Shown here: positions 2,665 to 29,328 of the stretch, piece by piece
Numbering within the stretch: the first letter of the stretch is position 1
How the letters are laid out: each line of letters starts with the position of its first letter
Origin: a virus
Virus record (IMG/VR): IMGVR_UViG_3300037345_000085
Location: 1-38,372 of that record
Length of the DNA stretch: 38,372 nucleotides
Direction: 5' to 3' (one strand)
The notes under the pieces: model-generated
Seen by the model: only the letters and a program-made list of their open reading frames with translations
Databases searched by the model: none
Told to the model about the DNA's origin: nothing
Translations under genes and position numbers: made by a program

Positions 2665-2698
2665 CAAATGTAATGAATTTAGTAATATATCATATTAC
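2665..2698 (-). promoter_or_regulatory. Late promoter with 17-bp palindromic operator (packaging operon)
   Basis: Read leftward, the -7 box TACATTTG (2672-2665) fits the Bacteroidetes consensus TAnnTTTG. No TTG -33 element lies at the usual 17-23 bp spacing. Instead a perfect palindrome with arms GTAATAT and ATATTAC around 3 bases (2682-2698) begins exactly 9 bp upstream of the -7 box. The same palindrome occurs at three other promoters, and the 9-bp spacing is identical at 2909-2925. Confidence 0.72.
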
Positions 2699-2759: not shown

Positions 2760-2880
2760 TGGATAGAGAAGGACTTGAACCTCCGACCTTTATTATGCAT
2801 AAGATTAATTGACTGCAAAAAGTTGCCTTCCGACAATCTACTTATAACTATAACGCTCTACCAGCTGAGACTACCTACCC
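2760..2880 (-). tRNA. tRNA-like RNA with a 53-base anticodon-loop expansion
   Basis: Read leftward from 2880, the sequence has a 7-bp acceptor stem (GGGTAGG with TCTATCC, two G-U pairs), a D arm with AGCTGGTA flanked by CTC and GAG (one extra T beside the stem), variable loop AAGGTC, a T arm of 5 bp with loop TTCAAGT, and discriminator A at 2760. CCA is not encoded. The anticodon stem is GTTAT (2854-2850) with ATAAT (2796-2792), but 53 bases lie between its halves instead of 7. They can fold as an extended arm: ATAAG/CTTAT, GATTG/CAATT, and a GCAA-CTTT-TTGC hairpin. No anticodon can be assigned. It could be a tRNA with a tiny intron, a tRNA mimic or a decayed tRNA. It has its own promoter (2892-2899) and terminator (2712-2741). 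Confidence 0.75.
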
Positions 2881-2891
2881 ATTTTGAATTG

Positions 2892-2925
2892 CAAATATAA
2901 ATACTTTAGTAATATAAATTATTAC
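2892..2925 (-). promoter_or_regulatory. Promoter with palindromic operator for the tRNA-like gene
   Basis: The -7 box TATATTTG (2899-2892) ends 11 bases before the first base of the tRNA-like RNA, so the transcript would start at or just before the acceptor stem. The palindrome (2909-2925, arms GTAATA and TATTAC, less perfect in its centre than the other copies) begins 9 bp upstream of the -7 box, as at 2682-2698. No -33 TTG element is present at the normal distance. Confidence 0.68.
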
Positions 2926-15926: not shown

Positions 15927-16160
15927 CTAATTGTTTGAAATGGATTTGTAAGCCACTGGTTCTACTTCAAATATTTCTTCATCTGTAAAACCCGCTTCTT
16001 TCAAAACATTAATAACTCTAATGTCATTAAACAATGTTTCGCTGTTTCGTTCTATTCTTCTGAATAATGCAGCTTGATGAATGTCAAGCTTTAGAGCTAC
16101 TTTAAGAGATAACTGATTGTCATTTCTTAATTTCTTTTTGATTTTAGCTTTTACTTTCAT
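15927..16160 (-). CDS. Cro-like small DNA-binding protein
   Basis: This 77-residue protein is basic at its N-terminus (MKVKAKIKKKLRNDNQ) and holds a helix-turn-helix at about 15-40 (LSLKVALKLDIHQAALFRRI). It is divergent from the CI-like repressor and first in the leftward early operon, the standard place of Cro. Its promoter (16206-16234) overlaps the repeated operator sequence, so repressor binding would shut it off. It could itself bind the same sites to favour lytic growth. The HTH match is by eye. Confidence 0.75.
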   Translation of the reverse strand: MKVKAKIKKKLRNDNQLSLKVALKLDIHQAALFRRIERNSETLFNDIRVINVLKEAGFTDEEIFEVEPVAYKSISNN

Positions 16161-16205: not shown

Positions 16206-16234
16206 CAAATTTACAACTTTTTTACAACCAACAA
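16206..16234 (-). promoter_or_regulatory. Early leftward promoter
   Basis: TTG (16234-16232) and TAAATTTG (16213-16206) are separated by 18 bp and match the Bacteroidetes consensus. The Cro-like ATG lies 45 bases downstream. The operator repeat at 16211-16227 covers part of the -7 box and the spacer. Confidence 0.8.
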
Positions 16235-16258
16235 AATATAATTACAACTTTTTTACAA
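16211..16258. promoter_or_regulatory. Pair of 17-bp operator repeats between repressor and Cro genes
   Basis: The sequence TTACAACTTTTTTACAA occurs exactly at 16211-16227 and 16242-16258, 31 bp apart, about three helical turns, so both copies face the same side of the DNA. Each holds two TTACAA/TACAA words. They are the most likely binding sites of the CI-like repressor, covering the early promoter and the region upstream of the repressor gene. No consensus promoter is visible for the repressor itself. Confidence 0.7.
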
Positions 16259-16291: not shown

Positions 16292-16993
16292 ATGACTGAA
16301 ATACAAAGAAATAGAAACAATAAAAAATTAATCAAAATGGTTAATTTTTTACAACTTGAATTCCCTGTTGCGGAAATATCAGAGAGATTGAAAGTTGATA
16401 AAGGGAATTTGTCTTCTTATTTGAACAACAAAAAATCGGTTTCAAACAACTTTATACAAAAGTTTACAACCGAGTTTAATTTGAATATCGAAGAATTTAA
16501 CGATGATGAGGAAACGGATCATATAAGGACCAGTCAAGCGATCAGGATACCCTTTTACGAGGATTCAATTATGATGGGAGGTAATTCAGACACGGCAGAA
16601 ATGGCAGGTATTTCTGTACATAATGAAATGATTGATGCTGGCGATTGGTTCCGTGATGCAACAGGAGCTATGAGGGTTCATGGTAATAGCATGTATCCAA
16701 ATTATCCAAGCGGTTGCATTGTAGCCTTCAAACAAGTCAATGATATTGTATTGCTTTTGTATGGTCAAGATTATATGATTGAAACTTCGGAGTATCGAGT
16801 TATTAAAAGAATTCAAAAATCTTTGATTGCTGATAATTTATTGTTGTGCAGTTATAATGATGAGAAAGATAGTAGAGAGTTTTATGTGCATGAGAATTTT
16901 GACGTGCCACTTGACAAAATAACTAGAATTTTTAGAATACTGGGTAAAGTTGAACGCACGGAAAGTAGCAGAATTGTTTATAATAAAGTTTAG
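16292..16993 (+). CDS. CI-like repressor with S24 (LexA-type) self-cleavage domain
   Basis: Residues about 10-65 form an XRE-type HTH (ISERLKVDKGNLSSYLNNKK). Residues about 85-215 are an S24 peptidase domain: catalytic Ser133 in GNSMYPNY and Lys172 in YRVIKRI, with Ala105-Gly106 as probable cleavage site. This is the maintenance repressor of lysogeny, inactivated when RecA-DNA filaments form during DNA damage. It is the first gene of the rightward lysogeny operon and is divergent from the Cro-like gene. The spacing from cleavage site to Ser is shorter than in LexA, so the exact site is uncertain. Confidence 0.92.
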   Translation: MTEIQRNRNNKKLIKMVNFLQLEFPVAEISERLKVDKGNLSSYLNNKKSVSNNFIQKFTTEFNLNIEEFNDDEETDHIRTSQAIRIPFYEDSIMMGGNSDTAEMAGISVHNEMIDAGDWFRDATGAMRVHGNSMYPNYPSGCIVAFKQVNDIVLLLYGQDYMIETSEYRVIKRIQKSLIADNLLLCSYNDEKDSREFYVHENFDVPLDKITRIFRILGKVERTESSRIVYNKV

Positions 16994-16997
16994 AATT

Positions 16998-17540
16998 ATG
17001 AGAAAATTTACATTAGTATTTGTAGTGTTATTTACTACTTTGGGATTCAGTCAAGAAACTGAATTTAAGTTTACAAAAGATGGTTTTACTGATTATGTTG
17101 TTACTGACTGTAAAGATAAATCGGCAGCCGAACTATACAAAAAAACAATTGATTGGATTTCTACAAACTATAATAATCCAAAAGAAGTATTGAAAGCTCA
17201 AATTGAAAATGATTATTTGAGATTTGAAGCTATTGAGAAAAATTTATTTTGCCTAAAACCTACTATGTGTTCTGATATGAAATATCAAATAGAGGTTTCT
17301 TTTAAAGATGGTAAATACAAATTTGACTTACTCGCTTTGGATCAAGATATGCCTGATATTGGATGGGTTCATTTCGGAGGATTGGAAGATGGTAAATACT
17401 ACTTTATTGAAAACGGAGAAGCTAAATCTAAATTTAAAATAATAGCTGACGAAATCCCTAAATATTTCAATTCACTAAATAAGAGTCTAAACGATTTCAT
17501 TACAAATGGAGTTTCCACTAAAAAGAAAAATGATTGGTAA
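16998..17540 (+). CDS. Secreted DUF4468-like protein in the lysogeny operon
   Basis: The ATG at 16998, four bases after the repressor stop, gives 180 residues starting with a signal peptide (MRKFTLVFVVLFTTLGFSQ, cleavage likely after Gln19). An upstream start inside the repressor gene would hide the signal peptide. The mature part shows the pattern of DUF4468 (TBP-like fold, Bacteroidota): KDGFTDYVV, AAELYKKTIDWI, a long helix with NPKEVLKAQIE, and VSFKDGKYKFDL. These proteins are exported, function unknown. Linked to the repressor, it should be made in lysogens and change the host surface or periplasm, so it is a lysogenic conversion candidate. Confidence 0.82.
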   Translation: MRKFTLVFVVLFTTLGFSQETEFKFTKDGFTDYVVTDCKDKSAAELYKKTIDWISTNYNNPKEVLKAQIENDYLRFEAIEKNLFCLKPTMCSDMKYQIEVSFKDGKYKFDLLALDQDMPDIGWVHFGGLEDGKYYFIENGEAKSKFKIIADEIPKYFNSLNKSLNDFITNGVSTKKKNDW

Positions 17541-17797
17541 TGAACGAAATTGATAAAAAAATAATTGAACAACTAATTCCGGTACTTGTTTCTGTACATA
17601 GTGTTGAATTTGAAAGTGATTTTTGTAAAGACATAGGTTTGTTGAAACAAAATCTTCAACGCATTAAAAACGGAATCGCTCACTTCACTCCAAAACACAT
17701 TCAATCAATATGTGAAAAGTACAACATTAATTCTAACTGGATTTTCGGATTAGAAACTAATGTTTATAGATTGAAAACAATCCCATTTCACAGGTAA
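17540..17797 (+). CDS. Small XRE-like DNA-binding protein
   Basis: The ATG at 17540 overlaps the stop of the secreted protein gene as TAATG; an earlier start is less likely. The 85 residues contain an HTH-like region (DIGLLKQNLQRIKNGIAHF followed by TPKHIQSICEKYNINSNWIFG), with the NxxWIFG ending typical of XRE repressors. It lies between the repressor and attP, so it may regulate integrase or excision. No S24 domain is present. Confidence 0.78.
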   Translation: MNEIDKKIIEQLIPVLVSVHSVEFESDFCKDIGLLKQNLQRIKNGIAHFTPKHIQSICEKYNINSNWIFGLETNVYRLKTIPFHR

Positions 17798-27227: not shown

Positions 27228-28442
27228 TTATTTATTTCGTTTTTCTCTAATTTCTCTAGCTTTATCAGCATCGTAACCTGACGCATCAGGTTTTTTACCA
27301 CCTTTTGGCGGTGCATCTTCACCAGCTGGTACATCAAATTTGCTTTTGATGTTTTTACCCAAAACATTTAATTTGTTTGATACTAAATCAAATGCTTCTT
27401 CATTATCTCCTTGAGTTTTTTGATATACTTTTAAGAAAGCATCAAATTTTTTGTCAAGTTTTGAAACAGAATTCATAACCTCTTGCAACATTGGTGCTGG
27501 GTCTTCTGTTCCTGGTTCTTTTGGTTCTTCTGTTGCAGTAATCTCATCGATAACTCCAGCAAGAACTACAATAGTTCCACCATCAGGTAAAACATATGTA
27601 TCATCTGCAAGTGGCGCACCAGTATCATCTGTTACTGCATCACCAACTTGTGGCTCTGTTGCATCGGTAACAACGGTTATGATGCTTCCATCACCTAAAG
27701 TGATATTCACATCAAAAGCATCGTCTTTCTTTCCTTGCAACTTTTTTTTCATTTTGTCTAAAAAGCTCATATTAAAATTAATTACGGATTTACGGTTTGA
27801 ATAATTTGTGTATCGTTCAAAGAAGTCTTGAATGATATCAGGTTGCTTTTCGATTGTTGCAAAAAGCTGTGGATTGTTGTCTAGGAATTGAGTAACTAAT
27901 ACACCAAGGTCTTTACTATCTGAAAACAACGTATCAGTTGCAGCTGGTTCATCAACTAAATCACACGCTTTGAATTTGTCAAGTATGTGAAGTACTCTGT
28001 TTTTACCATCAACTTCTTTTTCGTATAATTCAGAAAAAATGTGAATTGAATTCCCAAACATATCAGGATTGCTTTCGGCCATATCCATGATGTAATCAAA
28101 CATCATAATTCCTTTACCTTCTACGCTCGTTTTTTTTGTGATTGGATCTAAATATAAATCTGCATAAACATCTTTATTTTGAATATTGAAGTTTTTGTAA
28201 CGTCCAATGAAAGTACCAAAGGAAGTACCACACATATTGGGATGTCCGAAACGAGATTTGATACCGTCGGCTTGGTTTCCAAACTTTACTATATCTGCCA
28301 AAAATAATTCATCAAAAAAACTGTCGTTTTTGTTTTCTCCGTATTGAGCGATGCAGGTATTTTTTAAGATGCCGTTTTCTCTATCAACATTTAAGTTTTT
28401 AGAGTTGAAGTTTGGTAGTGCGTTAAAGAATTTCTTTGACAT
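27228..28442 (-). CDS. Prohead protease with C-terminal scaffold region
   Basis: The ATG at 28442 gives 404 residues; the frame is open further upstream but would run through the promoter palindrome. Residues 1-170 resemble capsid maturation proteases: RFGHPNMCGTSFG (His67), YADLYLDP, MFGNSIHIFSE (Ser132 as possible nucleophile) and CDLVDEPAATDTLF, a hallmark of gpO/assemblin-like proteases. The rest is acidic and Gly/Asp/Pro-rich with a helical segment (MLQEVMNSVSKLDKKFDAFL), suiting a scaffold removed during maturation. It heads the capsid-lysis operon. The catalytic residues are proposed by motif only. Confidence 0.8.
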   Translation of the reverse strand: MSKKFFNALPNFNSKNLNVDRENGILKNTCIAQYGENKNDSFFDELFLADIVKFGNQADGIKSRFGHPNMCGTSFGTFIGRYKNFNIQNKDVYADLYLDPITKKTSVEGKGIMMFDYIMDMAESNPDMFGNSIHIFSELYEKEVDGKNRVLHILDKFKACDLVDEPAATDTLFSDSKDLGVLVTQFLDNNPQLFATIEKQPDIIQDFFERYTNYSNRKSVINFNMSFLDKMKKKLQGKKDDAFDVNITLGDGSIITVVTDATEPQVGDAVTDDTGAPLADDTYVLPDGGTIVVLAGVIDEITATEEPKEPGTEDPAPMLQEVMNSVSKLDKKFDAFLKVYQKTQGDNEEAFDLVSNKLNVLGKNIKSKFDVPAGEDAPPKGGKKPDASGYDADKAREIREKRNK

Positions 28443-28448
28443 TTTTTT

Positions 28449-28475
28449 GTAATATATTATATTACTACAAAAGTA
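28449..28475 (-). promoter_or_regulatory. Capsid operon promoter with palindromic operator
   Basis: The -7 box TACTTTTG (28475-28468) is followed downstream by the perfect palindrome GTAATATATTATATTAC (28449-28465), which ends six bases before the protease ATG. Here the palindrome covers the probable transcription start rather than the -33 region. A TTG lies 24 bp upstream of the -7 box (28502-28500), slightly beyond the usual range. Confidence 0.7.
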
Positions 28476-28523
28476 TTTTAATATCAAAAAAAATATAGTC
28501 AATGAGTTTTGACTATATTGTGT

Positions 28524-28531
28524 TATATTTG
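28524..28531 (+). promoter_or_regulatory. Rightward -7 box for the antisense-oriented membrane gene
   Basis: TATATTTG matches TAnnTTTG and ends four bases before the ATG at 28536, so the transcript would be leaderless or almost so. A TTG lies only 12 bp upstream, too near for a regular -33 element. Confidence 0.55.
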
Positions 28532-28535
28532 CTTT

Positions 28536-28814
28536 ATGGTTATTCTACTTTTAATTATTGGTATAGCAATCTTAATTTACGCATCTATTATGTGGATAAA
28601 ATTTGTGTGGTTTGTTTTTACTCCAAAAAAGAAACCCACCAATCCTTATATCGAAGCTCAAAAAACAATAATGGATAACGATAAGAACTATGAGGAATAC
28701 ATAGAATGGATGTCTAAAAATGGTTCTGGAGTTCCTGTTGATAAAATAAAACACAAAGAGGAACAGGATATTGAAAAAGGTGTTAACCAAAGTGTTTTTA
28801 GAATTTTCAAATAA
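28536..28814 (+). CDS. Small membrane protein, the only rightward gene in the late region
   Basis: The ATG at 28536 follows a -7 box by four bases and gives 92 residues; an upstream in-frame start would lie within the promoter. Residues 2-33 form one or two hydrophobic spans (MVILLLIIGIAILIYASIM, WIKFVWFVF), followed by a charged cytoplasmic tail (KKKPTNPYIEAQ and onward). It converges with, and overlaps by 8 bases, the small HTH gene at 28807-29037. Opposite orientation and its own promoter mark it as a moron-type gene that could be expressed in lysogens, for instance in superinfection exclusion. This is inference. Confidence 0.75.
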   Translation: MVILLLIIGIAILIYASIMWIKFVWFVFTPKKKPTNPYIEAQKTIMDNDKNYEEYIEWMSKNGSGVPVDKIKHKEEQDIEKGVNQSVFRIFK

Positions 28815-29037
28815 TTCGTTCTGAAAATTTCTTTACAATTTGTTTGACTGAGCTCCAACTCAAACCTTCCTCTTCTGCAATGAATTCATAAGCGCAATAG
28901 TTACAAACTTTCTGCCCTTTTAATTCGTGATACCTTTCAAAGATTAAAATGTTACGTGACCAAACAGGATCAACAACTCCTAGCTTTGTGAGTTCTTTAA
29001 TTTCTTTTTGAAAATGTTTTACATCTGTGTATAGCAT
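28807..29037 (-). CDS. Small HTH protein, candidate late-gene regulator
   Basis: The ATG at 29037 is chosen because the -7 box TATATTTG ends three bases before it. The 76-residue protein has an N-terminal helix (MLYTDVKHFQKEIKELTKLG) and a C-terminal helix-turn-helix (KVCNYCAYEFIAEEEGLSWS followed by SVKQIVKKF), similar in layout to small Mor/C-like or sigma-like HTH proteins. Two Cys form CNYC. The 17-bp palindrome shared by all late promoters abuts its -7 box. This suggests autoregulation and control of the late regulon, but no direct evidence exists. Confidence 0.75.
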   Translation of the reverse strand: MLYTDVKHFQKEIKELTKLGVVDPVWSRNILIFERYHELKGQKVCNYCAYEFIAEEEGLSWSSVKQIVKKFSERII

Positions 29038-29040
29038 ACG

Positions 29041-29065
29041 CAAATATAGTAATATAATATATTAC
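29041..29065 (-). promoter_or_regulatory. Promoter with palindromic operator for the small HTH gene
   Basis: The -7 box TATATTTG (29048-29041) is directly preceded by the perfect palindrome GTAATATAATATATTAC (29049-29065). The palindrome overlaps the stop codon of the upstream gene (29062). The start codon at 29037 follows the -7 box by three bases, so the mRNA may be leaderless. Confidence 0.72.
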
Positions 29066-29328
29066 CATTTACCTTTTATACATTGATAATCTTTACTTCG
29101 AACTGCTGGCGATAACGGACAACCGCAGCCGCCTTTTTCGGCACTGCAATACATACCTTGGATTTCATTTATAGTAAAATCGGGAAGTATTGCAGTATGT
29201 ATTCCGAAAGTAGCTATTGGACACTCGGTACAAATAGCAGCTCTACGTTTTGCTTCGTCAATTGTAGTTTGGTCTGCTCCAATAAAATAATTTGACCAGC
29301 CGTTTATAATATCATTAATTTTACTCAT
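29062..29328 (-). CDS. Small cysteine-rich late protein
   Basis: This 88-residue protein carries CTECP near residue 33, MYC, GGCGCPL and YQC; together these five to six Cys could bind zinc or iron-sulfur. It follows the tape measure gene after two bases and is the last gene of the packaging-tail operon. Such small Cys-rich proteins recur near tail genes of Bacteroidota phages without a known role. It might be a tail tip component or chaperone. Confidence 0.75.
   Translation of the reverse strand: MSKINDIINGWSNYFIGADQTTIDEAKRRAAICTECPIATFGIHTAILPDFTINEIQGMYCSAEKGGCGCPLSPAVRSKDYQCIKGKW

Follow-up and report, generated by a model that had tools for sequence, protein, structure and literature searches.

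In described phages, all late operons can depend on very small late regulators, as with P2 Ogr and P4 Delta, of which Ogr is a zinc finger that acts at sites centred near -55. In phage Mu, which encodes the late activator C and the middle activator Mor, one small, dimeric helix-turn-helix (HTH) phage protein serves several late promoters through dyad-symmetric sites. The Mu promoters lys, I, P and mom all need C, which activates transcription and whose sites are placed upstream of or overlapping the -35 region (PMC4461284). In mycobacteriophages of the L5 type, one repressor recognizes a single type of site that is repeated as many as about 30 times in a genome, oriented with transcription, both at promoters and inside transcribed regions, and the site words drift among phages together with the repressor (PMC6550527).

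The window analysed here, a phage sequence of 38,372 bases, is complete, as judged from its identical first and last 127 bases and from terL running across the junction, and carries four copies of a 17-bp palindrome at late promoters. These sites are like those of Mu C and Mor (PF08765) in that they are symmetric and in that one small HTH protein, here a candidate, would serve several late promoters. However, unlike the sites of Mu C, they occur at four offsets, which include the -7 box and the start site. The candidate regulator is very small, as are Ogr and Delta, whereas the sites lie between -38 and +15 and not near the Ogr position, and a CxxC motif is not conserved, being found in some members of the protein family only and absent in L022, L030, L008 and the distant members. 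In contrast to the L5 arrangement, there are three to six symmetric palindromes per phage, nearly all of them at late promoters, and L5 Rep also acts at an early lytic promoter, unlike the palindrome set here. The phage's own CI-like repressor region (16211-16258) also contains putative operators in multiple copies; these are direct repeats (TTACAACTTTTTTACAA, twice), which differ from the 17-bp palindrome in word, as the initial annotation had maintained, and serve different promoters.

An exact scan of the whole genome recovered GTAATA-N5-TATTAC exactly four times, all four sites fitting without mismatch and no further copy being found, and thereby confirmed the coordinates first proposed for the palindromes. 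Against the longer form GTAATAT-N3-ATATTAC, there are no mismatches at 2682-2698, 28449-28465 and 29049-29065 and one at 2909-2925; only when three mismatches were allowed did extra matches appear (at 191, 5504, 7807 and 21789), which is the chance level, and the scan revealed no abundance of matches within coding regions. In a first-order Markov simulation of the genome, the palindrome appeared in 0 of 200 trials, as against the 4 copies observed. Further, when palindromes were counted without bias, for every 6-bp arm and spacers of 0-10, GTAATA-N5 was the most repeated palindrome in the genome; it also ranked top in the relatives G003, G015 and G019, while GTAACA-N5, with three copies, tied for first rank in G001. 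No copy was present at the cI/cro or hicAB promoters, in keeping with the earlier report that early, lysogeny and hicAB promoters lack the palindrome. The sites are thus common to late promoters and absent from early ones, late and early being judged by gene content; the broader statement that every late unit is marked stands for this genome by its sequence-inferred promoters, with the lateness of the units taken from gene content only.

All four copies, the -7 boxes beside them and the units that they serve are on the minus strand. Flavobacterium sigma-A promoters have the consensus TAnnTTTG at -12 to -5 (PMC9723704), by which the -7 boxes were assigned. Copy 1 (2682..2698; GTAATATGATATATTAC, an exact match) lies 9 bp upstream of the -7 box TACATTTG (2665..2672) of the packaging operon, in which a ParB/methyltransferase gene (1185-2639) is followed by a terS-like gene, terL and the tail genes. 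Copy 2 (2909..2925; GTAATAATTTATATTAC, one mismatch to the longer form) is likewise 9 bp upstream of the -7 box TATATTTG (2892..2899) of a tRNA-like RNA unit (2760..2880; Rfam tRNA, 32.7 bits). Copy 3 (28449..28465; GTAATATAATATATTAC) begins 2 bp downstream of the -7 box TACTTTTG (28468..28475) of the protease-capsid-lysis operon and lies over the predicted start site; the first gene of this operon (27228..28442) has a weak PHROG match to head maturation proteases and adjoins the capsid protein gene in relatives too. Copy 4 (29049..29065; GTAATATATTATATTAC) includes the stop codon of the preceding gene (29062-29328) and abuts the -7 box, again TATATTTG (29041..29048), of a gene for a small HTH protein (28807..29037). 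On the minus strand, therefore, the geometry originally described, with two copies at 9 bp, one abutting and one over the start site, is found as claimed.

Additional features were observed around these promoters. The acceptor, D and T arms of the tRNA-like RNA (2760-2880) match Rfam tRNA and the anticodon arm has a long insert that forms a separate hairpin; ARAGORN made no tRNA call for this RNA. In several packaging promoters (2640-2672 in this phage; L166 1266, L132 356, L174 10656, L182 14136), mostly before ParB-type genes, the -7 box is directly succeeded by TTTGTGTC and then, after a gap of about 8 bp, by GAC or GTC; this element is perhaps a second operator. A second, different palindrome (TAGTCAA-N6-TTGACTA, 28496-28515) is located 8 bp upstream of a -7 box (28524-28531) that serves a divergent gene for a small membrane protein (28536-28814). 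In most relatives the promoter of this gene has a variable palindrome of 18-22 bp, often TAG...CTA, also in some phages without the 17-bp site, and the palindrome at 28496-28515 may be the operator of another regulator.

Relatives were gathered through the capsid protein and gene 29062, which yielded about 20 phages and prophages, several of them in named Flavobacterium genomes, with structural proteins mostly 35-75% identical. F. sedimenticola YZ-48 and F. hungaricum Kb82 are among the strains that harbour prophages of this kind. A nucleotide search of GenBank phages gave no match, and among the GenBank phage records searched none was closer than about 23% in the capsid protein. The late regulon, that is, the 17-bp palindrome at late promoters, is real and conserved: the palindrome is found at packaging, capsid and small regulator promoters of this phage and of at least 10 related Flavobacterium-type phages, and thus recurs at the same genes. 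The conserved placements are the start of the protease-capsid operon, the interval between gene 29062 and the HTH gene, the packaging promoter and a small accessory unit. The packaging promoters of G002, G003, G010 and G019 have the geometry of copy 1; the placement of copy 3 is repeated in G008, G009, G010, G015, L036 and L307, and that of copy 4 in G003, G008, G009, G010, G014, G015, L307 and the distant L114, L118 and L188. The tRNA-like unit was seen in this phage only, and the equivalent site in relatives serves a small protein with a signal-peptide-like start (119-147 aa in G008, G015, G002 and G003), by which a secreted late product may be co-regulated with the structural genes. Extra copies occur in the subgroup formed by G008, G009, G014 and G015, where one lies within the transcribed 3' part of terL, a location without a copy in this phage and reminiscent of the L5 stoperators; G008, G009 and G015 have a further copy after a vsr-like gene. 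The terL-internal copy (e.g., L054 2060-2076) is about 160 bp before gene 36973, has a word similar to that of the phage's other copies and no -7 box, and is possibly a roadblock or an auxiliary site.

The search was extended in two directions. Variable-spacing scans of viral contigs, in which the matches listed were mostly due to chance, were the source of L114, L118 and L188, and when 299 genomes of the host genus were searched for homologues of the HTH protein, a further site-bearing member (L307) and a distant, site-less family came to light. Two Flavobacterium genomes (L314 and L316) have the distant homologue behind a sigma-factor-like gene, a neighbourhood that hints at a wider family of transcription regulators. 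L008, L035, L041, L042, L043 and L046, some of which are fragments, have the same structural genes and no 17-bp site, and in L035, L041, L042 and L046 no alternative repeated palindromic word was found.

The sites of a given phage change in concert. G015 has the word GTAATAA...TTATTAC at each of its six sites, G010 (F. hungaricum) has GTAACA-N5-TGTTAC at each of its three, and the two sites of L307 are an identical 17-mer. The 17-mer GTAACAATTATTGTTAC exemplifies the word of G010, as GTAATATAATATATTAC does that of this phage. The mean distance is 1.21 bases among the sites of one phage versus 2.32 bases among sites in equivalent positions of different phages (p=0.0002 by label permutation; p=0.0016 once G010 and G015 were left out), the outcome to be expected where a single protein in each phage recognizes every copy. 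In host chromosomes, prophages apart, the density of the palindrome is about that of a control pattern, which argues that the regulator is phage-encoded. A distance of 11 bp, close to one helical turn, separates the centres of the two GTAATA half-sites, in accord with the expectation for an HTH dimer. Very probably, then, one phage-encoded protein controls these late genes via the palindrome, and the initial proposal of one regulator for all late units gains support both from the recurrence of sites at the same genes and from their co-variation within each phage.

The position of the palindrome relative to the promoter varies among sites. At 37 of 52 unique sites, TAnnTTTG was found at an offset of -29, -27, -24, -3, 0, 9 or 10 from the end of the palindrome, where 1.5 would be expected, and the offsets are discrete rather than scattered. 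With reference to the start site, the main classes extend from -38 to -22 (offset +9), from -29 to -13 (offset 0), from -26 to -10 (offset -3, overlapping the -7 box) and from -2 to +15 (offset -27, covering the start site); only the +9 class comes near the -35 placement of the Mu C sites, whereas the other three do not. Among phages, the offset is +9 or -3 at the packaging promoter, 0 or +9 at the promoter of the HTH gene, and 0, +8, +9 or +10 at the accessory unit. A -33 TTG at 17-23 bp was found in 4 of 37 palindrome promoters, which is about chance (10% expected), as opposed to 9 of 18 other intergenic TAnnTTTG promoters in the same phages (Fisher p=0.0025). Only in the +9 class does the palindrome coincide with the -33 place. 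As -33 elements are missing, the late promoters are probably intrinsically weak.

The protein that binds these sites is likely to be the small HTH product of 28807-29037, the best candidate by virtue of its presence in relatives and of its own promoter with a site. No other DNA-binding candidate was found throughout the palindrome-bearing phages examined, which have either this protein or, at the same location, a remote homologue; the gene has its own promoter with a site in about 12 phages, and in the distant L114, L118 and L188 the remote homologue follows gene 29062 and the site abuts its -7 box. An AF2 model consists of four helices with a C-terminal HTH (mean pLDDT 82); its fold matches are generic HTH folds, and a search of solved structures by sequence gave no match. 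The region of the recognition helix reads HWEMIKK in G010, whose sites have GTAACA, versus SWQSVRK in its near relative G002, which has the ordinary GTAATA, a correlation that draws on the one clear operator change available. However, the protein is also encoded by L035, L041, L042, L043, L046 and L008, which have no palindromes, and in L044, L048 and L049, which do have palindromes, the HTH gene overlaps the preceding gene and is without its own promoter. Of the two proteins that the initial annotation had named for binding assays, this one was retrieved from relatives, and the other (15927-16160) was dropped, as it gave no tblastn match in any palindrome-bearing relative.

Other sources for the pattern carry less weight. 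It is improbable that the sites belong instead to another protein of the phage, be it the XRE-like product of 17534-17797 in the lysogeny module, the CI-like S24 protein (16292-16993) or a ParB-family protein. The XRE-like protein is promising by presence, as it was detected in the majority of those close-group genomes that bear palindromes but not in G004, G012, G016 or G017; however, G019 has three palindromes and no detected homologue, and contig C4 of G011 has a homologue and no palindrome, and this candidate was set aside. A ParB protein acting on a KorB-like model was rejected, since palindromes are absent from G004, which encodes a 70% identical ParB-methyltransferase, and present in G002 and G003, which gave no ParB match, and the CI-like protein is at odds with the different word of the repeats in its region. 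That a host transcription factor binds the sites is very improbable: the promoters are indeed of the host -7 type, but the palindrome is close to control density in host chromosomes, and the word that a prophage has at all of its sites differs from one Flavobacterium host to another. Finally, the sequence is AT-rich (34% GC), which could favour chance palindromes or a functionless repeat, yet with no copy expected and four observed, and with sites that keep their places and change in concert although the genomes have diverged strongly, we give this explanation practically no credence.

As to the sign of control, we lean towards autoregulated repression by the palindrome-binding protein. A repressor would suit the freedom of offset and the location of sites over the start site or the -7 box, and the four offset classes, the switching of offset at orthologous promoters, and the box-less copies in terL and after the vsr-like gene count in the same direction. 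However, the offsets are discrete and the promoters are without -33 elements, which would better suit an activator or another helper. It is possible, at a lower probability, that the protein is an activator or has a dual role: from sites centred near -30 or -21 it would stand in for the -33 contact that these promoters lack, and repression would be limited to the protease promoter or to high concentrations of the protein. The lack of -33 elements at palindrome promoters and the recurrence of the discrete offsets 0 and +9 at non-orthologous promoters would agree with this, as would a weak resemblance to the Mor family, in which 3 of 20 family members matched PF08765 below the Pfam gathering score (best E 0.016) and the 28807-29037 protein itself did not match, and structural matches to Mu C (9l0x, Z 5.3) and Mor (1rr7, Z 5.2). 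These Z values, however, are equalled or bettered by many unrelated HTH folds, the Mor match is below the cut-off, one activating geometry could hardly serve centres near -30, -21, -18 and +7, and the -3 class overlaps the -7 box while the protease class covers the start site.

Taken with autoregulated repression as the favoured mode, the observed sites, their conservation, geometry and concerted variation allow a model in which we infer the identity of the regulator, the sign of its control and its timing. This model proposes that a single dimeric protein encoded by the phage binds the four palindromes as its operators, that it is most likely the 76-78-aa HTH product of 28807-29037, whose own promoter would be controlled as well, and that late genes would be governed in this way in a group of temperate phages of the Flavobacterium type that is as yet undescribed. 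In the prophage state, or in the early phase of infection, the bound protein would keep RNA polymerase from the TAnnTTTG promoters that serve packaging, capsid and accessory genes until late genes are needed, whereupon release may occur by titration on replicating genomes, by an antirepressor or by loss of the protein. A more ambitious proposal, which we regard as rather doubtful, is that the 28807-29037 protein founds a new family of late regulators that reads GTAAYA palindromes at -33-less promoters of Bacteroidetes, acts in both directions according to position, and forms a late-gene switch of temperate Flavobacterium phages with a specificity that has been re-set between close relatives. 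In the open-access literature, which was the scope of the search, no published description of the palindrome or of late-gene control in temperate Flavobacterium phages was found. A short conserved operator, a named candidate protein and natural operator variants make the late switch of these phages directly testable, and the operator words could help to assign prophage fragments to this phage group.
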